DNA of 34,286 nucleotides, taken from positions 1 through 34,286 of the forward strand of contig PABA01000073.1 of NCBI GenBank assembly GCA_002699025.1, written 5' to 3'. This document shows positions 8,835 through 28,336 of this stretch, one piece after another. Position 1 is the stretch's first letter. Each line of letters begins with the position of its first letter. The notes under the pieces were generated by a model. It was not told where the DNA came from. It did not search any database and saw nothing but the letters and a program-made list of their open reading frames with translations. The position numbers and the translations under genes are program-made. This stretch comes from Sandaracinus sp. (GTDB lineage: Bacteria > Myxococcota_A > Polyangia > Polyangiales > Houyiibacteriaceae).

Positions 8835-11353
8835 GGCTGCAGCGGGATGCGAAGCGGGTCGTCCAGCGACATCGGGCCGCGGGGCGCCCGGGGCCAGCGC
8901 AGATGACCCGCCGCGTCGGTATGGGCCGGGAGCGCCGTGCCGTCCGCGAAGCGGAGCGCGACCAGGTGGCCGCGCAGGAGCGACTCGCCGTCGCCCGCGT
9001 AGGCGTAGACGTCGGCCGCTTCACCCCGGGGCGGGAGCGTGGGCCGGGCGCAGGCCCGGGCGACCTCGGGGGCGAGCTCCTCGACGGCGCAGCGCGCGAG
9101 CCGCGCCTCGGCGTCCCGCCCGCCGAGGCGGCCGAGCCAGCGGGCGGCGGCGGCGCGCACGGGCGGGGCGTGGGCGGCGCCGAGGTAGGTCTCCGGGCCC
9201 CGGTCCGCGCAGCGGGCCCCGAGGGCCGCGAGGCCGACGAGCGCGTTGGCGCGGGTGTGGGCGTCCCGGCGGGAGAGCACGGCGCAGAGCCCCTCGGCGA
9301 GCCCCTCCGGGCGCACCTCGCGGCGGGCGAGGCGGGCGAGGGCGAAGGCCGCGCCGGCCGAGGCCGGCCAGGCGCCTTCGCGGGCGAGGTCGATCAGCGC
9401 GGGCACGTCCGTCTCGCGCCCCACCTCGCCGAGCGCCGTCGCCGCTGCCAGGCGCACTTCGGTGCGCTCGTCCCCGAGGGCCTCGCGCAGCCGGGCGCGG
9501 GCGTCGTCGTCGTCGAAGGCAGCCAGCGCGCGAAGCGCCGGGAGCCGCCGGTGGGCCGGCCCGGGCCCGGCGAGCGCGAGCACGACCGGCCGGGCGTGCT
9601 CACCGCCCGCACCTCCCCAGCGCGCGAGCGCGTCGATGGCGCGGGCCGCGAGCGGGCGGTCCGGGCCCCGCGCGGCGCGCTCGAGGCGGGCCGCCAGGGT
9701 CGCCGGATCGCCGGGCTCGATGCCGCGCGCGAGGGCCCCGCCCAGGGCCTCGAGGACCGCGGCGCGGTCGACGGGCTCGCGGGCCTCGAGCCGCTCGCCG
9801 AGGGCCTCGACCATGGCCGGCGAGGCCGCCTCCCCGAGCGCCCGGGCCGCCTCGAAGCGGAGCCGCGGCTCCTCGGCGTCCAGCAGCTCGATCAGCGCCG
9901 TGGCGCCCTCCGGGTCGCCGATGGCGCCGATGGCCTCCACGGCGGCGAGGCGGAGCGCGTCGTCGTCGGCGCTGGCGAGCGGCCGGAGCGCGGGGAGGGC
10001 GCGCCGCGCGCCGATGTGTCCGAGGAGGCGCACGACGCGGCGGCGCTGGGCGTCGTCGACCTCGCCGAGGGCGGCGAGGAGGGGGTCGGCCGCCCGTCCG
10101 TCGCCCGGATGCAACTCGAAGTAGCGCTCGAGGGCCACCAGCCCGGGCTCGGGGGCGCCGGGATCGAAGCGCTCGAGGAGCGGGACGAGGACCTCCGGCT
10201 CCCCGGAGGCGGCGAGCGCGCGCATCAGCACGGCCTCGTCGCCCCGTCGCGCCTCGAAGGTCTCGAGGAGCGGGCCCGCCGTCGCCGGCGTGGGCTGCGC
10301 CTCGAGGCGCCGGGCCAGCACGGCGGCGAGCGCCGTGACGTGGTCGGGATCGCGGAGCGTGGCGAGCTCACGGCCGAGCTCCTCCGTGCGCTCCGCTCCG
10401 GCGAGACCCACGAGCACCTCCGCGGCCGTCTCGCGCAGCTCCGAGATGCCGAGCGCCTGGACCACCGCCGCCCGGGCCGCGGCACCGCCGATCGCGCCGA
10501 GGGCCACGACCGCCGCCCGGGCCGCGCGCGCGTCCCGGTCGCGGAGGAGATCGACGAGGGGCTCCACGGCGCGGGGGGCGCCGAGCCGGCCGAGGGCCGC
10601 GATGGCGGCGAGGCGCGCGCTCTGGTTCTCGTCGCGGAGCGCCTGGACCAGCGCGGCGCTCGCCCGCGGATCGCCGAGGGCGCCGAGGGCGCCGTAGACC
10701 GCCTGGCGGACGTCCGGGGACTCGTCCCGGGCGCGCCCCACGAGCGGCACGACGGCCCGGGGATCGCCGAGGGCGCCGAGCGCGTGCGCCGCCTCGACGC
10801 GCACCTCCGGATCGTCGTCGTCGAGGCGCCCGAGGAGCGGCACGACCACCTCGACGCCCTCCTCGTCGCCCATGGCCGCCAGGGCCACCACGGCGGCGCG
10901 ACGGACGGCTGCGCTGGCGTCGCCGAGGGCGCGCACCAGGGAGGGGACGGGGCGCGGATCGCCGATGCGCCCCAGGGCGCGGGCGGCACCGGCGCGGACA
11001 TCCGGATCGGGATCCTCGAGCCACTCGGCGAGGAGCGGGCCGGCGGCGCGGAGGCGGACGGCACCGGCAGCGTCGGCGGCCTCGCGGCGCACGGCCGGAT
11101 CGGGGTCGCGGAGCGCGCGGAGCAGTGGCTCGCGGACCTCCTCGGCGGGGTAGTGGGTGAGGAGCCGGACGACCTCGCGGCGCTGGCGCACGTCCCCGGT
11201 CTCGAGCTGGCGCTCGAGGCGTCCGAGCCGGCCCTCCCACTCGAAGCCCATGCTCAGCGCCAGGGCCCCGACGAGGAGCAGGCGCGCCCCGCCCCGGGCC
11301 GCCCTCCACCGGCGGCGCCTCGCCCTCTCCCGCGCTCTGTCTCGCCGCCGCAT
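8831..11353 (-). CDS. Membrane-anchored HEAT-repeat protein
   Basis: 840 residues. A very basic N-terminus (about 1-20, mostly Arg) precedes one hydrophobic segment (about 24-36), giving a predicted inside-positive anchor with the rest outside the cytoplasm. From about residue 50 to 750 it is a continuous array of PBS-lyase-type HEAT repeats with a period of about 31 residues. Typical units are DPDPDVRAGAARALGRIGD and DPRAVVPLV. The last about 90 residues are non-repetitive. HEAT arrays are protein-binding scaffolds; no catalytic motif is visible. The ATG at 11353 was chosen because it places the basic segment directly before the hydrophobic one; an upstream GTG at 11494 would add 47 unconvincing residues. 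Its stop overlaps the tamA start (GTGA), so it is the first gene of a coupled tam operon. A role as a periplasmic TAM accessory is inference. Confidence 0.85.
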   Translation of the reverse strand: MRRRDRARERARRRRWRAARGGARLLLVGALALSMGFEWEGRLGRLERQLETGDVRQRREVVRLLTHYPAEEVREPLLRALRDPDPAVRREAADAAGAVRLRAAGPLLAEWLEDPDPDVRAGAARALGRIGDPRPVPSLVRALGDASAAVRRAAVVALAAMGDEEGVEVVVPLLGRLDDDDPEVRVEAAHALGALGDPRAVVPLVGRARDESPDVRQAVYGALGALGDPRASAALVQALRDENQSARLAAIAALGRLGAPRAVEPLVDLLRDRDARAARAAVVALGAIGGAAARAAVVQALGISELRETAAEVLVGLAGAERTEELGRELATLRDPDHVTALAAVLARRLEAQPTPATAGPLLETFEARRGDEAVLMRALAASGEPEVLVPLLERFDPGAPEPGLVALERYFELHPGDGRAADPLLAALGEVDDAQRRRVVRLLGHIGARRALPALRPLASADDDALRLAAVEAIGAIGDPEGATALIELLDAEEPRLRFEAARALGEAASPAMVEALGERLEAREPVDRAAVLEALGGALARGIEPGDPATLAARLERAARGPDRPLAARAIDALARWGGAGGEHARPVVLALAGPGPAHRRLPALRALAAFDDDDARARLREALGDERTEVRLAAATALGEVGRETDVPALIDLAREGAWPASAGAAFALARLARREVRPEGLAEGLCAVLSRRDAHTRANALVGLAALGARCADRGPETYLGAAHAPPVRAAAARWLGRLGGRDAEARLARCAVEELAPEVARACARPTLPPRGEAADVYAYAGDGESLLRGHLVALRFADGTALPAHTDAAGHLRWPRAPRGPMSLDDPLRIPLQP

Positions 11354-11466
11354 GGTCTTCGGGTTCGGGAGCGCGTCTCGGAGGCCGGGCCCGGCTTCGG
11401 GCAACGGGGTGGGTGTCCGGGCCCCGACCGGCGCGAGCGCGCCCCGCGGTCCGCCCCGGCAGGCGC

Positions 11467-11472
11467 ACGGTA
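11467..11472 (-). promoter_or_regulatory. Candidate -10 element for the HEAT-tamA-tamB operon
   Basis: On the minus strand the sequence reads GCTACCGTGC, containing TACCGT (TANNNT form). It lies in the 226-base divergent gap shared with miaB and would give a leader of about 105 bases before the ATG at 11353. No convincing -35 box is seen. Confidence 0.35.
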
Positions 11473-11579
11473 GCACGGCGCCGCTCCGAGCCAACGCCCC
11501 GCCGCGAGGGCCGATTCCCGGCCGAATCCAGGCCGCCGTCGAGGTGTTCCGCCGCCGATCCGGTGCTAAGGCTGCACCC

Positions 11580-13007
11580 GTGGCCCGTCGTTACATCGTC
11601 CAGACCTTCGGCTGCCAGATGAACGTGCACGACTCCCGTCGCATCGAGGAGGTGCTGCACGGCGAGGGCTACGCGCCGACCGAGGACGCCGCGCTCGCGG
11701 ACCTGATCGTCGTCAACACGTGCAGCGTCCGCGAGAAGGCCGAGCACAAGCTGATGAGCCTCCTGGGCACGCTCCGCCCCTACAAGGAGACGGAGCGCGA
11801 GGTGCGCATCGCCGTCGCCGGCTGCGTGGCCCAGCAGGAGGGCGAGCGGCTCCTGAAGAAGGCGCCGCTCATCGACCTGGTCCTCGGGCCGGACAACATC
11901 CCCGAGCTGCCGCGCCTGCTCCGGGAGCTCGACGGCGGCGCCCCCCCGGCCGTGCGCACCGAGTTCGATCTCGCCGATCCGCAATTCCTGGTGGCGCGCC
12001 CGCGCGGCGGCGGCGAAGTCACGAGCTTCGTGACCGTCATGAAGGGCTGCGACGAGCGCTGCACCTTCTGCATCGTCCCGACGACCCGCGGCTCCGAGCG
12101 CTACCGGCCCGCGGACGCGATCGTGGGCGAGGTCGCCGAGATGGCCGCGGGCGGCGTGCGCGAGGTGACGCTCCTCGGCCAGACCGTGAACAGCTGGTTC
12201 GACCCGAGCGAGCTCGAGGCCAAGCCGCGCTCGAAGGCGGCCCCGAGCGGCTCGCAGTTCGCCGACCTCCTCCGGCGCATCGCCCGCGAGGTCCCCGAGC
12301 TCGCTCGGCTCCGCTACACCTCCCCGCACCCGCGCCACCTCACGGACGCGCTCATCGCGGCCCATGCGGAGCTGCCTCTGCTCCCCCGGCACGTGCACCT
12401 GCCCGTCCAGTCGGGCTCGGATCGGGTCCTCAAGCGCATGTCCCGGCGCTACACGCGGCGCCTCTACGCGGAGCGCACGGCGAAGCTGAAGGAGGCCGCG
12501 CCGGGGCTGACCCTCTCGACGGACATCATCGTCGGCTTCCCCGGCGAGACCGAGGAGGACTTCGAGGAGACGCTCTCGCTCGTCCGCGAGGTCGGCTTCG
12601 TCTCCGCGTTCTGCTTCAAGTACTCGCCGCGCCCCTCGACGCCGGCGCTGAAGCTCGGGGACGACGTGCCGGAGGCGGTGAAGGACGAGCGGCTCCAGCG
12701 CCTCTTCGAGGTGGTCGAGGGGCAGCAGCGCGTGCACCTGAAGAGCCTCGTCGGGACGCGCCAGGAGGTCCTCGTGGAGGGGCCGAACGACGCGAGCGTG
12801 AACCGCTACAGCGGGCGGAGCGGGCGGCACGAGATCGTGCACCTCGAGGCGCCGGAGGGCATCGATCCGACGGGGCAGCTCGTCGAGGTGACGATCGAGA
12901 AGGCGTTCCGGCACAGCCTCCTCGGGCGCATGGACGGGGCGACCTTGCCCGAGCGGCCCGTGCGCCGGCCGCGAAAGAAGCTGCCGCTGCTCGGAGCCGA
13001 CGCGTGA
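11580..13007 (+). CDS. miaB: tRNA-2-methylthio-N6-dimethylallyladenosine synthase MiaB
   Basis: Radical-SAM methylthiotransferase that adds the 2-methylthio group at A37 of tRNAs reading UNN codons. Residues follow the family closely. The N-terminal UPF0004 domain has the auxiliary-cluster cysteines Cys12 (TFGCQMN), Cys48 (NTCSVRE) and Cys82 (AGCVAQQEG). The radical-SAM triad is Cys157, Cys161 and Cys164 (GCDERCTFCIVPTTRG). HVHLPVQSGSDRVLKRMSR and DIIVGFPGETEEDF follow, and a C-terminal TRAM domain spans about 390-460. The length (475) is normal. The GTG at 11580 gives MARRYIVQTFGC, the expected start; frames opening earlier add unrelated residues. It is first in a chain with the VanZ-like gene and the carbonic anhydrase, coupled by 4-base overlaps. 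Confidence 0.97.
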   Translation: MARRYIVQTFGCQMNVHDSRRIEEVLHGEGYAPTEDAALADLIVVNTCSVREKAEHKLMSLLGTLRPYKETEREVRIAVAGCVAQQEGERLLKKAPLIDLVLGPDNIPELPRLLRELDGGAPPAVRTEFDLADPQFLVARPRGGGEVTSFVTVMKGCDERCTFCIVPTTRGSERYRPADAIVGEVAEMAAGGVREVTLLGQTVNSWFDPSELEAKPRSKAAPSGSQFADLLRRIAREVPELARLRYTSPHPRHLTDALIAAHAELPLLPRHVHLPVQSGSDRVLKRMSRRYTRRLYAERTAKLKEAAPGLTLSTDIIVGFPGETEEDFEETLSLVREVGFVSAFCFKYSPRPSTPALKLGDDVPEAVKDERLQRLFEVVEGQQRVHLKSLVGTRQEVLVEGPNDASVNRYSGRSGRHEIVHLEAPEGIDPTGQLVEVTIEKAFRHSLLGRMDGATLPERPVRRPRKKLPLLGADA

Positions 13008-20359: not shown

Positions 20360-21148
20360 GTGGCGCGTGAGCGACTGCAGAAGGTGATCGCGGCGGCGGG
20401 GATCGCGTCGCGGCGGAAGGCCGAGGGGCTGATCGAGGCCGGGCGCGTGCGCGTGAACGGCAAGGTCGTCACCGAGCTCGGCGTCAAGGTCGACCCGCAC
20501 AAGGACAAGGTCGAGGTCGACGGGAAGCGCATCGTGCGCGAGAAGCCGGCCTACTACGTGGTGCACAAGCCGCGTGGGATGGTCTCGACGCTCGACGATC
20601 CGCGGGGGCGGCCCTCGCTCCGGGAGATCTGCGACCGCATGAAGGAGGGCGTGCACCCGGTGGGGCGCCTCGACTTCCACACGAGCGGCGTGCTCCTCGT
20701 GACGAACGACGGCGAGATGACACAGGCCCTGCTCCGGCCGCGGAGCGGCGTGCCGAAGGTGTACCTGGCGAAGATGCACGGGATCATCGGCGTGGACGAG
20801 CTCGACCGGCTGCGGAACGGCGTCGAGCTGGACGACGGCTACGTCACGAAGAAGGCCGAGGTCTTCGTCGAGCGGCAGGAGGACCGGAACACCTGGGTGC
20901 AGATCACGCTGCACGAGGGGAAGAACCGGCAGATCCACCGCATGGGCGACGCGATCGGGCATCGCGTGATGCGGCTCGTGCGGCTGAGCTTCGCCGGGAT
21001 CACGGCCGAGGGGCTGAAGCCCGGGGAGTTCCGGCGGGTCCACGGCAAGGAGCTCGAGCGCTTGCAGAAGCGCTTCCTGAACCCGTTCAAGAAGCGGAAG
21101 GCGAAGCGCATGGCCGAGCAGCGGCGGGCGCGGAACGCCAACGATTGA
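20360..21148 (+). CDS. RluB/RsuA-family ribosomal RNA pseudouridine synthase
   Basis: 262 residues. N-terminal S4 RNA-binding domain (about 1-60: LQKVIAAAGIASRRKAEGLI...GRVRVNG), then the RsuA/RluB/RluE catalytic domain with YYVVHKPRGMVSTLDDPRGR, the catalytic Asp in GRLDFHTSGVLLVTNDG, and the late family motif LHEGKNRQIHRM. Predicted to isomerise a single uridine in 23S rRNA (RluB-type, position 2605 in E. coli numbering) or an equivalent site; subfamily assignment rests on overall similarity. The C-terminus is Lys/Arg-rich. The GTG at 20360 gives MARERLQKVIAAAG, with GGAAGG 7 bases upstream. The next gene starts inside its stop codon. Confidence 0.93.
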   Translation: MARERLQKVIAAAGIASRRKAEGLIEAGRVRVNGKVVTELGVKVDPHKDKVEVDGKRIVREKPAYYVVHKPRGMVSTLDDPRGRPSLREICDRMKEGVHPVGRLDFHTSGVLLVTNDGEMTQALLRPRSGVPKVYLAKMHGIIGVDELDRLRNGVELDDGYVTKKAEVFVERQEDRNTWVQITLHEGKNRQIHRMGDAIGHRVMRLVRLSFAGITAEGLKPGEFRRVHGKELERLQKRFLNPFKKRKAKRMAEQRRARNAND

Positions 21149-22140
21149 TGGAGGGCGCGCTGCGGTCGCGCGGTCGGGGGCGGCGGGAGCGGCTGGTCGC
21201 GATCGAGGACTGGCCCGTGGCCGGGGTGTTCCGGACGGCGCGGGTGGCGCGGCGGCACACGCGGGTGGTGCGGCTCGAGGTGCGCGCGGAGGGGCAGGTG
21301 GGGCGCGGGGAGTGTGTGCCCTATGCGCGCTACGGCGAGAGCGCGGAGGGGGTCGCGCGGACGCTCCGGTCGGCGCCGCTGCGGCTCGAGCGGGTCCGGG
21401 AGCTGCCGGCGGGGGCGGCCCGGGACGCGCTGGACGCGGCGCTCCTGGACCTCGAGGCGAAGCTGCGCGGGGTCGCGGTGCACGCGCTGCTCGGCCTGCC
21501 GGCGCCTCGGCCGGTGGCCACCGCGTTCAGCGTCGGGGTGGACGCGCCGGCGGCGATGGAGGCGGCGGCCCGGCGGCGGCGCGGGTGGCCCTGGCTGAAG
21601 CTGAAGGCGGATCCGGACGCGGTGCTGGCGCGGGTGGACGCGGTGCGGCGCGGGGCCGGGGTGGGGGCGCGGCTCATCGTGGACGCGAACGAGTCCTGGT
21701 CGCCGGAGGCGTGGCGGGAGCTGGCGCCGGCGCTCCGGGAGCGTGGCGTGGTGCTGGTGGAGCAGCCGCTGCCGGTGGGGGAGGACGCGGTGCTGCGCGA
21801 GGGGCGGGCCGTGCCGGTCTGCGCGGACGAGAGCGCGCACGAGGCGGCGGACGTGGGGCGGCTGGCGGAGCGCTACGACCTGGTGAACGTGAAGCTGGGC
21901 AAGGCCGGGGGGCTGCGGGGGGCGCTCGCGGTGGCGGCGGCGGCGCGGCGGCGGGGGCTCGGGGTGATGGTCGGGTGCATGGTGAGCACCTCGCTGGCGA
22001 TCGCGCCGGCGATGCTGGTCGCGGGCGGGGCGGACGTGGTGGACCTCGACGGGGCGCTCCTCTTGGCGCGGGACCGGGTGGGAGGCCTGGCGTGTCGGGG
22101 CCCGTGGCTGCGGCCGGCGCCGCGGAGCTTCTGGGGGTAG
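21148..22140 (+). CDS. Dipeptide epimerase (L-Ala-D/L-Glu epimerase family, enolase superfamily)
   Basis: 330 residues. The muconate-lactonizing subgroup catalytic set is complete: KxK at Lys151/Lys153 (WLKLKADPD), metal ligands Asp179 (VDANES), Glu205 (VEQPLP) and Asp227 (ADES), and the opposing lysine in NVKLGKAGG (249-252). The N-terminal capping domain has GRGECVPYARYGES, typical of dipeptide epimerases such as YcjG/YkfB and of DgcA. Predicted to epimerise the D-Glu residue of L-Ala-D-Glu released from peptidoglycan, allowing its reuse; substrate may differ. The ATG at 21148 shares its A with the rluB stop (TGATG), and I prefer it to a TTG one codon earlier. Confidence 0.9.
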   Translation: MEGALRSRGRGRRERLVAIEDWPVAGVFRTARVARRHTRVVRLEVRAEGQVGRGECVPYARYGESAEGVARTLRSAPLRLERVRELPAGAARDALDAALLDLEAKLRGVAVHALLGLPAPRPVATAFSVGVDAPAAMEAAARRRRGWPWLKLKADPDAVLARVDAVRRGAGVGARLIVDANESWSPEAWRELAPALRERGVVLVEQPLPVGEDAVLREGRAVPVCADESAHEAADVGRLAERYDLVNVKLGKAGGLRGALAVAAAARRRGLGVMVGCMVSTSLAIAPAMLVAGGADVVDLDGALLLARDRVGGLACRGPWLRPAPRSFWG

Positions 22141-22290: not shown

Positions 22291-23016
22291 GTGACCTCCG
22301 CCGCCTCCGATGACGCCCCGCCTTCTCCCCTCGAGCGCGGCGCCGCCGCCGTCGCCCTCCTCCTGGCCGGCGGAGCGGGCACCCTGACGGCGGGCATGTG
22401 GCCGGACAACGTGGTCTGGCTCCCGGCCTGGATCGCCGCGACCGCCGTCTACGTCGCGCTGGCCTGGGGGCTCTGGCAGGGCCGGGCCTGGGCGAGGGCG
22501 CTCGGCCTCGGCGTGGCGCTCTTCGGGCTCGCGGGCTGGATCGAGGCCTGGATCGTCGCCGGCACCTCGCCGACCACGGTCGCCGCCTCGCTCGCCCATT
22601 GTGCCTTCGCGCCGCTCCTCTTCTGGGCGCCGCGGCGCGTCGGCGGGCGGCATGGCTTCGCGCTCCTGGCCGCCGGGGCCGCGCTGCAGCCGGCCCTCGG
22701 CTTCGCCCTCGCGCCCGCCCAGAGCGGGGGCACCATGGCTGCCGTGCTCGCCGGCGCGGGCCTGGTGGTGCTCGGGGCCATCGGCGTCGCGCGAGGGCGG
22801 ACCTGGGGGCTGCTCGGAGCGCTCCTCGGCGCCCCCGTCCTCGCCGCCGCGGTCTTCTACGCGCCCTCCCTGGGCTTTCTGACGGCGCCGCACCCGCACC
22901 TGCCCGCCAACCCGGTGATGCTCGACCTGCTCGGCGCGCTGGCGGCCGGCTTCGCCGCGCTCTCGGTCGCCCCCTGGGTCGCGCCCATGGTCGGCTTCCT
23001 GCGCGGCGGCCGCTGA
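22291..23016 (+). CDS. Multi-pass membrane protein of unknown function
   Basis: 241 residues, about six or seven hydrophobic segments (roughly 18-36, 42-60, 68-88, 98-112, 118-140, 150-168, 172-190 and 205-230). Short Arg-containing loops (WQGRAWARALG, RGRTWG) suggest inside loops. Two GRxWxRALG-like stretches suggest an internal repeat in which a membrane pair is used twice. I recognise no family. The GTG at 22291 is the first codon after a strong -10-like hexamer, which suggests a leaderless message. It precedes another unknown gene by 59 bases. Confidence 0.75.
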   Translation: MTSAASDDAPPSPLERGAAAVALLLAGGAGTLTAGMWPDNVVWLPAWIAATAVYVALAWGLWQGRAWARALGLGVALFGLAGWIEAWIVAGTSPTTVAASLAHCAFAPLLFWAPRRVGGRHGFALLAAGAALQPALGFALAPAQSGGTMAAVLAGAGLVVLGAIGVARGRTWGLLGALLGAPVLAAAVFYAPSLGFLTAPHPHLPANPVMLDLLGALAAGFAALSVAPWVAPMVGFLRGGR

Positions 23017-23075
23017 GCGGATCGCCGTCAGCGGGCTTCAGCGCGCGCCGGGCTCGCACCCCGCATGCTGCGCCC

Positions 23076-23891
23076 ATGACCTCTGCCTGGCCCGCCTCCC
23101 CCTCGCTCGTCTTCGCGGTGCGCGCGGCCGTCGGCGAGACGGCGCTCCGCCGGGCGAAGCTCGATCGCCTCGGTCGCACGGCGCGCGGCCTGGTCGACGG
23201 GGCCGAGCGGACGCGTCGCCTCGCCCGCCTCGAGGCGCGCGGCTACGTCCCCGGCCGCCCCACGCTCCTCCAGCTCGCCTTCGGCGCCTGGGACATGTAC
23301 CGCTTCTGTCTCGTCCCGAGCGCCCACCTCCGGAACGGCCTCCTCGGCGCCGCCTTCTGGCGTCACCAGGCCCTCCGCGTGCTCGAGGATCCGGCGTCCA
23401 TGCTCGATCCGGTCGGCCTGCTCTCCGAGCGCGACACGATCGTCGGCCACCTCCTCCAGGTCGTGCACTTCGACCCGACCTACGATCTCCAGCTCCTCGA
23501 GATGTTCGAGGACGGCCTCGACGCCTTGGCCCGCGAGCTCGCGCTCTTCCGCGCGGGGCGGCACCCGCGGCAGCGTACGCTCGCGACGACGCTCGAGGAC
23601 CCTGCCTACCCGGCGCGCCTCGAGGCCTGGCTCGCGGGCTTCCTCGTGGAGGGGCCGGCCTTCGAGGTGGGGACGGCCCCGGTGGGCGACCCCGACTTCC
23701 TCCGCGCCGAGCGCACCTTCGGCTCTCTCTCCGGCTACCTCCGCGACTGCCTCGCGCTCCCGCCCGATCCCGCCGCGCTCGTCGCTCGCGCCCATCGCGT
23801 CCGCGCCATGCCCGGACTCCTTCGCCCGAGCTCGCCGCGAGCTCGCCGCCCGAGCTGCCCGCGCGGGCTCCGTCGCGACGCCGGGGTCTAG
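23076..23891 (+). CDS. Hypothetical protein, probably cytoplasmic
   Basis: 271 residues, no family recognised. No signal peptide or membrane helix. Rich in Arg, Leu and Ala with long helical stretches. Conserved-looking core motifs include GYVPGRPTLLQLAFGAWDMYRF, HLLQVVHFDPTYDLQLLEMF and EDPAYPARLEAWL; the alternation of aromatic and charged residues looks like a folded enzyme or binding domain rather than a spurious frame. The last about 25 residues are Arg/Pro/Ser-rich. The ATG at 23076 is the first start after the upstream gene's stop. It lies between the membrane protein and the di-heme cluster, all on the same strand. Confidence 0.72.
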   Translation: MTSAWPASPSLVFAVRAAVGETALRRAKLDRLGRTARGLVDGAERTRRLARLEARGYVPGRPTLLQLAFGAWDMYRFCLVPSAHLRNGLLGAAFWRHQALRVLEDPASMLDPVGLLSERDTIVGHLLQVVHFDPTYDLQLLEMFEDGLDALARELALFRAGRHPRQRTLATTLEDPAYPARLEAWLAGFLVEGPAFEVGTAPVGDPDFLRAERTFGSLSGYLRDCLALPPDPAALVARAHRVRAMPGLLRPSSPRARRPSCPRGLRRDAGV

Positions 23892-23941: not shown

Positions 23942-26236
23942 GTGCGCTATCGTGGCCCGCGCGTGTCCCCGCGCTCGCCCAGCCCCCTCTCACCCAGGCC
24001 CGTCTCGCCGCAGCTCCTCGTGCTCGCGGGCGCCCTCGCCGTCTGGTCGGTCTGGGGCGAGGCGAGCTTCGTCGCGCTGCTCGGCGCCTACGCGCTCGCC
24101 TGGCTGCTCCTCCAGGTCGTGGCCCTCCGCTTCCCCGCCGCGCTTCGGCTCCGCCTCGCCTCCGCGCAGCGGCTCGGCGTCCTCGCGCTCCTCGCCCTCG
24201 TGAGCGCCGTCGCGCTCTGGCGCGCGGCGCCCGAGCTCCGGGAGTCGGAGCGCCTCGACGCCCTCGTCGTGCAGACGCGCGACCGGCTCCGGCTCGAGGC
24301 CACGCCCTCGATCGCCCCGCCGGTTCTGCTCGCCGATCAGCCGCAGGTCTTCTTCGTGCACGCGCCCTCCGCCGAGCGGGTGCGGGCGCGCCTCGCGGAC
24401 GCGTTCGTGGACGCCCAGGCGCTCGGCCATGGCCTCTTCCGCCTCGCCTACGATCCGCGGCGTGACGGCCGGCCCGCGCGGGATGGAGACCACGCGGTGG
24501 CGCTCGAGGTGGACGGGGAGCGCGTCGGCCGAACGCTCCGGGCGGTCGTCCCCCAGCCCCGCCCCCGCTGGCTCCGGCCGGCGCCCGATCGGCGCTTCGC
24601 CGTGGGCACGAGCGAGGAGACGGACCAGGTCTTCGCCGTGGCACCGGAGGGGCTCCGCTGGCAGGTCGAGGTGGGCGACGGACCGACCGACGCCCTGCCC
24701 GTCGGTGCGCGCGTGGTGGTCGCCCATCGCTTCGAGGACGCGCTCCGCTGGCTCGACGGGGGAGGGCGGGCGCTCGGAGCGACGCCGCTCCCCGGCCGGC
24801 ACCGGCACCTCGCCGCCTCCCCGGCGGCGCGAACCCTCGCCGTGAGCGTCGACGGTCCGCGCCGAGGCGTCGCCTTCCTCGAGCCCGCGAGCCCGTCGGC
24901 CCGCGAGGTCGCCTTCGTGCCCCTCGACGCGGAGCCGGAGTGGCTCGCCTTCGGCCCGGACGACGACACGCTCGTGGTCTCCACGCGGCGGCCGGCGGCG
25001 CTCCTCCGCCTGCGCCGCCGCCCCGCCGGCTGGGCGGAGGAGGACGCTCGCCTCCTCGCCCGGCCCGCCGCGAGCCTCGCCCGCAGCCCGGCCGGCGACG
25101 CCGTGCTGATCGCCGCCACGGACCACCGCGCGGACGGCGACCACGCCCACCTCGGCAACCACTTCGTGCAGGACCAGCTCCTCGTCTGGGGCGTCGCCGA
25201 CCTCCGCCTCCGGGAGCAGCGCCTCACGGCGCGCCGCACGCCGCGCCAGGGCAACGCCGGCGCCGTCGATCGGGGCCTCTCGCCGATGGGCCTCGACTGG
25301 GTCGACGCGGGGGAGTGGCGCGTGGCCTTCGCCGGATCGGACGAGGCCTGGAGCTGGGGCCCGGCCGGGGAGCCGCCGCGCGTACACGCCGCCGACGACG
25401 TCCCGCTCGCCGCGCCCCACGGCGTCGCCGCGTTCGCCGGGGGCGGCTTCGCGCTCGCCTCACCCGTCGACGGAACGGTCGGGCTCTTCGGCGCAGATGG
25501 GCGGCTCGACCGGCTGGTGCGGCTCGCCCCCGAGGACGACCGGCTCCTCGTCCAGGCGCCGCGCGCGCTCCAGCGGCGCCTCGGCGGCCACGGCTTCTAC
25601 GAGGGCACGCGCTCGGGCGTCTCCTGCCAGAGCTGCCACCTCCACGGCGACACGGACGGGGCGCTCCGCAACATCGGCGGCCGGCGCCTCGGGCCGACGC
25701 TCCCTCTCGGCGGCGTCGCGGGCACGGCCCCCTATCTCCGCGACGCCTCGTACCCGCGCGTCGCGGATCTGCACCGGCACCTCGCCGCGACCCTCCTCGG
25801 CGGCTACCGGCGTCGCGCCCCGGCCCGCGCGCTGAACCTCGAAGCCTTCGTCGAGGACCTCCCGCGCCGCCCGCCGCCGCTCCCGCGCGCCTGGCTCGCC
25901 GGGCCGCTCCCCGCGGACGCGCTCGCCCGGGCCCGCGCCGGCGTGGACGCCTTCGCGAAGGCGCGCTGCCCCACCTGCCACGCCTTCCCGGCCTTCACGC
26001 ACCTCGGCGCGCACCCCGCAGGGGCGCTCTTCCCGGAGGGGCCGCTCGCCCCCGACGAGCTCCTCGACACCCCGTCGCTCCTCTCGGTCGCGACGCACCC
26101 GCCCTTCCTCGCGGACGGCCGCGCCCCCACGCTCCGGGCGGTGCTCGAAGACCATGGCGTCGGCCGCCACGGCCACGCCGACGCGCTCGAGCCGGCCGAG
26201 CTCGACGCCCTGCTCGCCTTCCTGGAGATCCTGTGA
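23942..26236 (+). CDS. Membrane-anchored beta-propeller/di-heme cytochrome c protein (MauG/CcpA-like C-terminus)
   Basis: 764 residues. Three hydrophobic segments near the N-terminus (about 24-38, 42-60 and 76-92) anchor it; the rest should be periplasmic. Residues about 110-545 are beta-rich propeller-like repeats (for example LAASPAARTLAVSVDGP, WLAFGPDDDTLVVSTRRP and GVAAFAGGGFALASPVDG). Then come two c-type haem sites: CQSCH (562-566) followed by DTDG, and CPTCH (676-680). The C-terminus has LDTPSLLSVATHPPFLADGRAPTLRAVL, the segment after the second haem in di-heme peroxidase/MauG proteins. Predicted electron-transfer or oxidising enzyme of the periplasm; whether it is a peroxidase cannot be told. 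GGGAG 5 bases before the GTG at 23942 supports this start, but a GTG at 23963 preceded by TATCGT is possible. Its stop overlaps the next start (GTGA). Confidence 0.88.
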   Translation: MRYRGPRVSPRSPSPLSPRPVSPQLLVLAGALAVWSVWGEASFVALLGAYALAWLLLQVVALRFPAALRLRLASAQRLGVLALLALVSAVALWRAAPELRESERLDALVVQTRDRLRLEATPSIAPPVLLADQPQVFFVHAPSAERVRARLADAFVDAQALGHGLFRLAYDPRRDGRPARDGDHAVALEVDGERVGRTLRAVVPQPRPRWLRPAPDRRFAVGTSEETDQVFAVAPEGLRWQVEVGDGPTDALPVGARVVVAHRFEDALRWLDGGGRALGATPLPGRHRHLAASPAARTLAVSVDGPRRGVAFLEPASPSAREVAFVPLDAEPEWLAFGPDDDTLVVSTRRPAALLRLRRRPAGWAEEDARLLARPAASLARSPAGDAVLIAATDHRADGDHAHLGNHFVQDQLLVWGVADLRLREQRLTARRTPRQGNAGAVDRGLSPMGLDWVDAGEWRVAFAGSDEAWSWGPAGEPPRVHAADDVPLAAPHGVAAFAGGGFALASPVDGTVGLFGADGRLDRLVRLAPEDDRLLVQAPRALQRRLGGHGFYEGTRSGVSCQSCHLHGDTDGALRNIGGRRLGPTLPLGGVAGTAPYLRDASYPRVADLHRHLAATLLGGYRRRAPARALNLEAFVEDLPRRPPPLPRAWLAGPLPADALARARAGVDAFAKARCPTCHAFPAFTHLGAHPAGALFPEGPLAPDELLDTPSLLSVATHPPFLADGRAPTLRAVLEDHGVGRHGHADALEPAELDALLAFLEIL

Positions 26237-27672
26237 CCGCGACCGAACGACCGACCCTCGCCCTCGCCGGCGCCTCCGGCTTCGTGGGGAGCGCCCTCCG
26301 CCGCGCCCTCGCCGACGAGTACCGGCTCGTCGGCCTGAGCCGCCGCCCGCGCCGGAGCCCGGACACCGAGTGGCGCGTCTGCGACCTCTACTCGCTCCTC
26401 GACGTGGAGCAGGCCCTCGCGGGCTGCGACGTCGCGCTCTACCTCGTTCACTCGATGCTCCCCTCGGCGCGCCTCACGCAGGGGAGCTTCGCCGACCTCG
26501 ACCTGGTGCTCGCCGACAACTTCGCCCGGGCCGCCGCGAAGGCCGGCGTGAAGCACATCGTGTACCTCGGCGGGCTGGTCCCGGACCTGCCCGAGGCGGA
26601 GCTCTCCGCGCACCTGCGCAGCCGGCTCGAGGTGGAGCGGGCGCTCGGGGCGCATGGCGTGCCCGTGACGGCGCTCCGGGCCGGGCTGGTCGTCGGCGCG
26701 GGAGGCTCCTCGCTCCACATCATGGTCTCGCTCGTGAAGCGGCTCCCGGCGATGGTGACGCCGGCCTGGACCGCGTCGCCGACGCAGCCGATCGCGCTCG
26801 AGGACGTCATCCGGGCCGTGCGCCACGCGCTGCCGCGCCCCGAAGAGGCGGGCGTCTACGACATCGGCGGGCCGGACGTGATGAGCTACCGGGAGATGAT
26901 GGCGCGGACGGCGCGCGTGCTCGGCAAGCGGCGGCCCACGCTGCCCGTGCCCCTCTTCACGCCCGAGCTCTCGACGCTCTGGGTCACGCTCGTCACGGGC
27001 GCGCCGCGGGCGCTCGTCGGGCCCCTGGTGCAGAGCCTCCGGCACGCGATGGTCGCGCGGCCCAACCCGCTCCTCGCCTCGCTCTTGGAGGACGCGCAGG
27101 GCTTCGAGGAGGCGCTCCGCGCGGCCCTGGACGAGGAGGCGCGCGCCTCGGCCACGCCGCGGGTCGCCGATCGGGCGGCGGAGCGCCGCGAGCACCGGCC
27201 GGCGCGGACCGTGCGCTCGGTGCAGCGGCTGCCGCGGCCGGCGGGGCTCGACGCGGACGACGTGGCGCGCGCGTACCTCGACTGGCTGCCGCGGCACCTC
27301 TGGCCGGTGCTGCGCGCCGAGCGCGATGGGGACGTGGTCTCCCTCGGCTTCTGGGGCCTGCCGAGGCCGCTCCTCGAGCTCACGCTCAGCGCGGAGCGGA
27401 GCACGCCGGACCGGGCGCTCTTCTACGTCACCGGGGGCCTGCTCGCGCGGACCGACGGGCCGCGGCCGGGGCGGCTCGAGTTCCGCCGCGTCATGGGGGA
27501 CGCCGTGCTGGCGGCGATCCACGACTTCCAGCCGGCGCTCCCCTGGCCCGTGTACAAGGCGACGCAGGCCCTCGCGCACCTCGAGGTCATGCACGCCTTC
27601 GGGCGGCACCTCCGCGCGCTCGAGCGGGCGCCGACGTCGGCGGCGGGGAAGCTGGTCGAGGCGCGCCCATGA
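26233..27672 (+). CDS. SDR-type NAD(P)-binding oxidoreductase with DUF2867 C-terminus (YbjT-like)
   Basis: 479 residues. N-terminal Rossmann fold of the atypical SDR/NmrA type with the nucleotide-binding GASGFVG at 13-19, LYLVHSM in place of a typical active-site strand, and HIVYLGGLVPD. The Tyr-x3-Lys catalytic pair of classical SDRs is not apparent. The C-terminal about 150 residues (from about 325: YLDWLPRHLWPVLRAERDGD to HAFGRHLRALE) match the DUF2867 domain that follows the SDR part in YbjT-like proteins. Substrate unknown. The GTG at 26233 overlaps the cytochrome gene stop (GTGA) and the stop overlaps a 13-codon ORF, so it is the middle gene of a coupled redox operon. NAD(P)H supply or quinone-linked electron flow to the haem proteins is inference. 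Confidence 0.88.
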   Translation: MTATERPTLALAGASGFVGSALRRALADEYRLVGLSRRPRRSPDTEWRVCDLYSLLDVEQALAGCDVALYLVHSMLPSARLTQGSFADLDLVLADNFARAAAKAGVKHIVYLGGLVPDLPEAELSAHLRSRLEVERALGAHGVPVTALRAGLVVGAGGSSLHIMVSLVKRLPAMVTPAWTASPTQPIALEDVIRAVRHALPRPEEAGVYDIGGPDVMSYREMMARTARVLGKRRPTLPVPLFTPELSTLWVTLVTGAPRALVGPLVQSLRHAMVARPNPLLASLLEDAQGFEEALRAALDEEARASATPRVADRAAERREHRPARTVRSVQRLPRPAGLDADDVARAYLDWLPRHLWPVLRAERDGDVVSLGFWGLPRPLLELTLSAERSTPDRALFYVTGGLLARTDGPRPGRLEFRRVMGDAVLAAIHDFQPALPWPVYKATQALAHLEVMHAFGRHLRALERAPTSAAGKLVEARP

Positions 27673-27710
27673 GCATGCGGGTCTTGGCGGCGGTGAGGGA
27701 GCGCGCATGA
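27669..27710 (+). CDS. 13-codon mini-ORF bridging two genes
   Basis: ATG at 27669 overlaps the SDR stop as ATGA and reads MSMRVLAAVRERA, ending in TGA at 27708-27710, which in turn overlaps the ATG of the next gene as ATGA. Both junctions are perfect 4-base overlaps. A ribosome could therefore pass from the SDR gene to the haem membrane gene in one step each. It may only relay ribosomes rather than make a functional peptide; the next gene also has its own GAGGGA site inside the mini-ORF. Confidence 0.4.
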   Translation: MSMRVLAAVRERA

Positions 27711-28336
27711 GCGAGGGGGAGCCGTCTTCGCGGTCCCGGGGGCGACGGCGCCCGAACGCGCTCGTGGCCGGCCTCGCGCTCGCGCTCCTCGCCGGGGTCG
27801 GCGTGGCCGCGGCCGGGGAGAGCTGGGCGTGGGGGCGCGGGCTCGTGCTCGCGCGCGGCGCCGGTTGGGGGGCCCTCGGCGCGCTGGCGCTCGCGCTCGG
27901 CGCCACGCCGATCGGGCGGCTCGGGCGCGCGCTCGGTCGGCGCTGGAGGGTCGCTCCCGCGCGCCGGGCCCTCGGGCTCGCCGCCGCGGCGCTCGCCACG
28001 CTCCACGCCGGGGCGGCGCTCTGGGGCCCACTGGCAGGCGCGTGGGACGCGCTCTTCGGCTGGCCCTACCTCCGCGCCGGCGCGCTCGCGCTGGCTGTCC
28101 TCCTGGCGCTCGCGCTCACATCCTTTCCGCGGGCGGTGAAGGCGCTCCGCGTGCGCCACTGGAAGGCGCTCCATCGGCTCGCCTACCCGGCCGCCGGGCT
28201 CGCCTTCGTGCACGTCCTCCTCGGGCCCTTCGCCCCGCGCCGCTGGGCGCTCGGCCTCCTCGGGGCCCTCCTCGTGACGCAGCTCCTTCGGGCGTTGCCG
28301 GAGCGGCCGCGGGGCGAAACCGCGCCGAGCGCCTGA
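27707..28336 (+). CDS. MsrQ-like haem-binding membrane protein (ferric reductase-like domain)
   Basis: 209 residues, five or six membrane helices. The haem-ligand histidines fit MsrQ: His100 (LATLHAGAAL), His156 (WKALHRLAYPAAG) and His169 (LAFVHVLLG), with the last two 13 residues apart as in the family. ALGATPIGRLGRALG and PRAVKALRVRHWKALHRL are also family-like. MsrQ passes electrons from quinol to the methionine-sulfoxide reductase MsrP; no msrP is in this window, so the partner may be the di-heme protein two genes upstream (inference). The ATG at 27707 is preceded by GAGGGA at 27695-27700, a 6-base spacing, and overlaps the mini-ORF stop. Confidence 0.85.
   Translation: MSEGEPSSRSRGRRRPNALVAGLALALLAGVGVAAAGESWAWGRGLVLARGAGWGALGALALALGATPIGRLGRALGRRWRVAPARRALGLAAAALATLHAGAALWGPLAGAWDALFGWPYLRAGALALAVLLALALTSFPRAVKALRVRHWKALHRLAYPAAGLAFVHVLLGPFAPRRWALGLLGALLVTQLLRALPERPRGETAPSA

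Follow-up and report, generated by a model that had tools for sequence, protein, structure and literature searches.

In the ferric-reductase-domain (FRD) proteins reviewed to date, electrons move from the cytoplasmic side of the membrane to an outer haem, i.e. outward, and among prokaryotic FRD proteins, only MsrQ was considered to have a clearly identified physiological role (PMC11031084). YedZ (MsrQ) and the STEAP proteins share a signature in which an Arg replaces the first His of transmembrane (TM) helix 3, next to equivalents of His115, His209 and His222 (PMC3591440). Among di-haem c-type proteins, MauG carries an inter-haem Trp (W93) and an acid-base Gln/Glu pair (Q103/E113) (PMC6405878). 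In hydrazine synthase (HZS), haem γ-II is ligated by two His residues, and fused βγ-like homologues of this enzyme are common and uncharacterised (PMC12758564). A literature search for MsrQ in combination with cytochrome c peroxidase or MauG returned no mention of MsrQ among the best 15 of 51 matches. Here, we analysed a locus that encodes an MsrQ-like membrane cytochrome b together with a membrane-anchored propeller/di-haem cytochrome c, a real and conserved two-gene pairing of known folds that is apparently undescribed. Judging from sequence comparisons, we consider it probable that the pair forms an undescribed two-component envelope redox unit, in which the FRD cytochrome b would pass electrons across the inner membrane to the di-haem protein.

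The locus lies in a stretch of 34,286 nt from Sandaracinus sp. (hereafter the window; Table 1). Re-reading of the coordinates and junction letters confirmed the four frames and the 4-base overlaps of the original prediction, namely GTGA between the di-haem and SDR genes, ATGA between the SDR gene and the mini-ORF, and ATGA between the mini-ORF and the MsrQ-like gene. Promoter/terminator and Rfam scans found nothing. Just upstream of the di-haem gene, a 497-aa frame on the + strand (22398-23891), possibly a gene, has no Pfam or NCBIfam match. Further upstream (20360-22140, + strand), a pseudouridine synthase gene overlaps by 4 bases with a gene resembling N-acetyl-D-Glu racemase DgcA / L-Ala-D/L-Glu epimerase (360 bits against a cut-off of 400).

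Table 1. Genes and frames of the locus, in window coordinates
Feature	Position	Strand	Remarks
Membrane-anchored propeller/di-haem cytochrome c gene	23942..26236	+	GTG start, 764 aa
SDR-type NAD(P)-binding protein gene	26233..27672	+	GTG start, 479 aa; lies between the pair genes in this genome only
Mini-ORF	27669..27710	+	ATG start, 13 codons, product MSMRVLAAVRERA
MsrQ-like (ferric-reductase-domain) membrane cytochrome b gene	27707..28336	+	ATG start, 209 aa

The predicted wiring of the MsrQ-like protein to the di-haem protein gained strong support from conservation, as 15 genomes of the order Polyangiales, from 10 genera and 4 families, and one gammaproteobacterial MAG keep the two overlapping genes together, at 31-50% identity. 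Eight other genomes among 57 relatives hold full-length or contig-split di-haem homologues (38-50% identity), and in each of them an MsrQ-like gene adjoins the di-haem homologue or sits at a contig edge. In an order-wide survey of 183 genomes, all 14 with the full-length di-haem family also carry a Ferric_reduct gene (Fisher p=3e-6), the surveyed pair genomes being mostly MAGs and some of them closely related to one another; a fifteenth match, in G015, was divergent. In G068, a contig edge truncates a further pair, of which the tail of the di-haem gene and an ATGA overlap are visible. Outside the window, with the start codon placed at the overlap wherever homology and frame permitted, stop and start overlap by 4 bases at 13 of 14 checkable loci and by 1 base at the other (G048); G037, whose two pair genes lie on different contigs, was left out of this count.

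Beyond the order, a phylum-wide survey of 377 genomes yielded no full-length member of the di-haem family, and a match in G077 was rejected as such, being an ordinary HZS-βγ-like protein. A scan of GTDB species genomes identified the pair in the gammaproteobacterial MAG NORP56, with the same gene order, an ATGA overlap and 34% identity, which suggests horizontal transfer. In this MAG, which is labelled Kangiella, the pair (L061, 5977-8855) is located between xanthine-dehydrogenase-type genes and an M23 peptidase/lpxC/ftsZ/ftsA region. An all-against-all comparison of flanking ORFs revealed no further conserved neighbours of the pair beyond close relatives, among the matches listed.

The MsrQ-like protein matched Ferric_reduct (PF01794) with 45 bits, above the cut-off of 28, and scored 53.4 bits against the MsrQ equivalog NF003831, below the cut-off of 130; three pair-type homologues reached 40-47 bits against the latter. 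Four residues, R86, H100, H156 and H169, are invariant in 13 pair-type sequences and reproduce the YedZ/STEAP pattern with identical FRD spacing (14 and 13 residues), which places the protein with YedZ/STEAP. Its AF2 model (pLDDT 86.6, six predicted TM helices) matched the folds of STEAP1 (Z 15.4), STEAP4 (14.9) and NOX5 (14.6), as well as STEAP2 (Z about 14-15). In a maximum-likelihood tree, MsrP-linked MsrQ proteins formed a clade (97/99) that excluded all 13 pair-type proteins, 12 of which grouped separately together with the G068 protein (96/96), with G048 unresolved. The same division was visible directly after the TM5 His, where 28 of 29 MsrP-linked MsrQ proteins carry R[VAE]K, usually followed by xDxxxP (the RVKxDxxxP motif), versus none of the 13 pair-type proteins, all of which have a different sequence there, typically LLxPFA. 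Since the TM5 His is an outer-haem ligand, this segment would be expected at the periplasmic face, where a partner would dock.

That a single protein joins membrane helices, a propeller and two haem sites was borne out: we found about three hydrophobic N-terminal TM helices (residues 23-102), a propeller (about 130-527) and a di-haem C-terminus with CxxCH motifs at C562-H566 and C676-H680. Against PF03150 (di-haem peroxidase/MauG), the protein scored 15.5 bits, below the cut-off of 25.6, and all single-sequence matches of the haem part to Pfam and NCBIfam were likewise below cut-off. A profile built from 12 di-haem sequences was more informative, matching YVTN propellers (1.2e-16), hydrazine synthase γ (2.7e-14, both halves), a di-haem peroxidase (1iqc, 1.4e-8), an MbnH/MauG-type enzyme (6e1c, 6.7e-6) and hydrazine synthase β (7.5e-6). 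The propeller was modelled confidently by AF2, and its top match, HZS β (Z 30.9, rmsd 2.9, 297 aligned), shared first place with WD40 proteins. The di-haem domain was modelled with low confidence (pLDDT mostly under 50), so we set the haem geometry of the model aside and based the haem roles on sequence alignment.

In this alignment, all 12 pair proteins have an Arg (R600) where peroxidases and MauG have the inter-haem Trp; the HZS γ residue at this position is His144, according to the profile alignment, and the Trp is kept by nearly all of the 17 unlinked paralogues compared within the order. Where these paralogues have the His of the second-domain PYxHDG motif, the pair proteins have A, N, V, F or Q. 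H743, within an RHG motif, is invariant (12/12) and aligns, by HZS-γ residue numbering, with His332, which we take to be the distal ligand of haem γ-II. Within the propeller, the loops LGNHFVQDQ and RxTxRQxxxGxxDRG are the best-conserved part of the pair proteins, and the LGNH motif is missing from the unlinked paralogues, except for the G015 homologue. The latter (L081, G015:C418, - strand, about 9863-12016) is a divergent full-length homologue with the propeller motifs, which has lost the H743 equivalent and the DGRA motif and whose second CxxCH is preceded by a low-complexity insertion. No Ferric_reduct gene was detected in its genome, which is 89% complete. As one natural case, the loss of H743 in G015 fits a role of haem II as the putative FRD port. 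Many unlinked propeller/di-haem proteins are encoded per genome in the order (loci L010-L030), most of them with the inter-haem Trp; they make up a large uncharacterised HZS-βγ-like/peroxidase set.

The homology of the di-haem domain to bacterial cytochrome c peroxidases, as in the match to 1iqc, and the outward electron flow typical of FRD proteins (PMC11031084) would both suit a membrane-bound, quinol- or flavin-driven H2O2 reductase, in which the FRD protein feeds a di-haem peroxidase. However, a classical peroxidase is disfavoured because the inter-haem residue is altered, as described above, and the Gln/Glu at +10/+20 are not conserved in the pair proteins, although the paralogues lack them too. 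Loss of the Trp alone would not be fatal to this explanation, since BthA functions without it (PMC6405878). Overall, we regard an H2O2 reductase as unlikely. It is conceivable, if tentative, that the FRD cytochrome b instead drives a derived HZS-βγ-like propeller/di-haem enzyme that reduces a non-peroxide substrate, with the Arg substituted for the inter-haem Trp, a bis-His second haem and the invariant LGNHFVQDQ and RxTxRQ loops forming the pocket of haem I. Such an enzyme would represent a new class.

For the two-component unit that we favour, we infer a direction of flow, haem roles, a physical complex and delivery to a substrate as follows. By analogy with MsrQ, STEAP and NOX proteins, the MsrQ-like protein would take electrons at the cytoplasmic or membrane side, from quinol or reduced flavin, and according to the FRD ligand pattern they would leave via the outer haem b held by H100 and H169. 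They would enter the di-haem protein at haem II (C676-H680), with H743 as probable sixth ligand, and move on to haem I (C562-H566), which would sit below the propeller as the terminal or active haem and hand them to a substrate or partner. The flow could also run inward, with haem I oxidising a periplasmic substrate or modifying a protein in the manner of MauG, and the MsrQ-like protein passing the electrons to the quinone pool. MauG does act oxidatively on a partner protein (PMC6405878), and MsrQ has been described as a quinone-binding subunit (PMC8238504). We nevertheless think inward flow quite unlikely: the FRD proteins reviewed move electrons outward (PMC11031084), and no conserved substrate-protein gene adjoins the pair, among the matches listed.

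MsrQ normally feeds MsrP, which had been noted as absent. This holds within the window, but the same genome encodes a clear MsrP on another contig (G000:C190:18763-19740, - strand; L053), with 400 bits against a cut-off of 207. No MsrQ gene adjoins it, and the only Ferric_reduct protein of the genome is the MsrQ-like protein of the window, which could therefore be a plain MsrQ that serves this MsrP, its di-haem neighbourhood being incidental. Across the order, MsrP is present in 36 of 183 genomes, 34 of which also have a Ferric_reduct gene. Among the 14 surveyed pair genomes, MsrP occurs in one, there on another contig, and is missing from 13, so the MsrP on C190 does not explain this locus, and msrP is not constantly paired with an msrQ-like gene of this type. 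The low NF003831 score, the lack of the RVKxD motif and the position outside the MsrP-linked clade also speak against a plain MsrQ. Moreover, G006 and G009, from the window's own family, keep MsrP with no Ferric_reduct gene detected, and MsrP there must therefore use another electron donor. Taken together, these data make a plain MsrQ improbable. The pair is not dependent on MsrP, and MsrP in this lineage seems not to depend on an FRD partner; the MsrQ-like protein may work with MsrP in this one genome. In the same family, G002, which has neither pair nor MsrP, contains a different Ferric_reduct frame (L161, G002:C120:6064-6447) of ~517 aa with an unusual insertion.

The SDR gene that separates the two genes in the window was predicted to be of the DUF2867 type, yet neither the SDR itself nor its C-terminal part nor one orthologue gave a PF11066 match at E<=1. 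Likewise, the proposed three-gene order was seen in no other genome examined: elsewhere, the di-haem and MsrQ-like genes overlap each other directly, and tblastn found no SDR homologue near the pair in any of the neighbourhoods examined. The best SDR relatives (45-65% identity) are encoded away from the pair and also in genomes without it, and the orthologues in G053 and G048 sit on other contigs than the pair. Because it is absent beside every other pair examined, the SDR does not belong to the conserved unit; its membership was rejected on the strength of these neighbourhoods, and it is a local insertion, a passenger at this locus. Although genes that overlap this tightly hint at co-translation in this genome, a three-protein unit in which NAD(P)H enters through the SDR is thus hardly credible.

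The mini-ORF fared no better as a connecting gene. It contains a GAGGGAG stretch, a plausible Shine-Dalgarno sequence, shortly before the ATG of the MsrQ-like gene, and at 77% GC a short frame is open by default. With 58 ATG-started frames of 10-20 codons in the window, its occurrence is no more than expected by chance, and we rejected it as a small protein. Most likely, the interposed junction simply holds the ribosome-binding site of the MsrQ-like gene here. The frame exists only because of the SDR insertion, and since this junction is unique to the genome, no homologue of it is to be expected.

Such a second, conserved cytochrome partner would illustrate how FRD membrane cytochromes are re-used. 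As a defined two-gene system, the pair allows the passage of electrons from a haem b to a di-haem cytochrome c to be measured directly. It would also provide a redox connection for one branch of the propeller/di-haem relatives of HZS βγ, which are abundant and uncharacterised.

Among known systems, the MsrQ-like protein is closest to MsrQ (YedZ), the haem subunit of MsrPQ, with which it shares the FRD fold, the six TM helices and the R/H/H/H signature. In contrast to MsrQ, whose partner is the molybdoenzyme MsrP, it is paired with a di-haem cytochrome, lacks RVKxDxxxP after the TM5 His, falls into a separate group of the tree and scores 53 bits against the MsrQ equivalog, whose cut-off is 130. 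The combination of a modular FRD protein with an extracytosolic redox partner is also found in MsrQ-like/FRD systems with ApbE-flavinylated partners (PMC8238504). Here, however, the partner is a propeller/di-haem cytochrome c, and there is no conserved flavinylation gene beside the pair, since no third gene is conserved among the matches listed. The di-haem protein has the two CxxCH haem domains and PYxxDG-type motifs of bacterial di-haem cytochrome c peroxidases, MauG and MbnH, but differs from them by the invariant Arg for the inter-haem Trp, the absence of the acid-base Gln/Glu and the apparent replacement of the second-haem Met/Tyr ligand by His. The pair is thus distinct from canonical MsrQ and from peroxidase/MauG. 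HZS βγ and its fused homologues (PMC12758564) likewise hold a propeller and a two-CxxCH domain in one chain. The pair protein classifies as HZS-βγ-like: HZS γ is the best sequence match of its haem domain, HZS β the top fold match of its propeller (with the tie noted above), and one of its His residues aligns with the distal ligand of the second haem. Compared with true HZS, the equivalents of γ-Cys165, γ-Asp168 and γ-His144 are absent (A, not D, and R in the pair protein), and the pair protein has, in addition, three TM helices and a partner of the FRD type.
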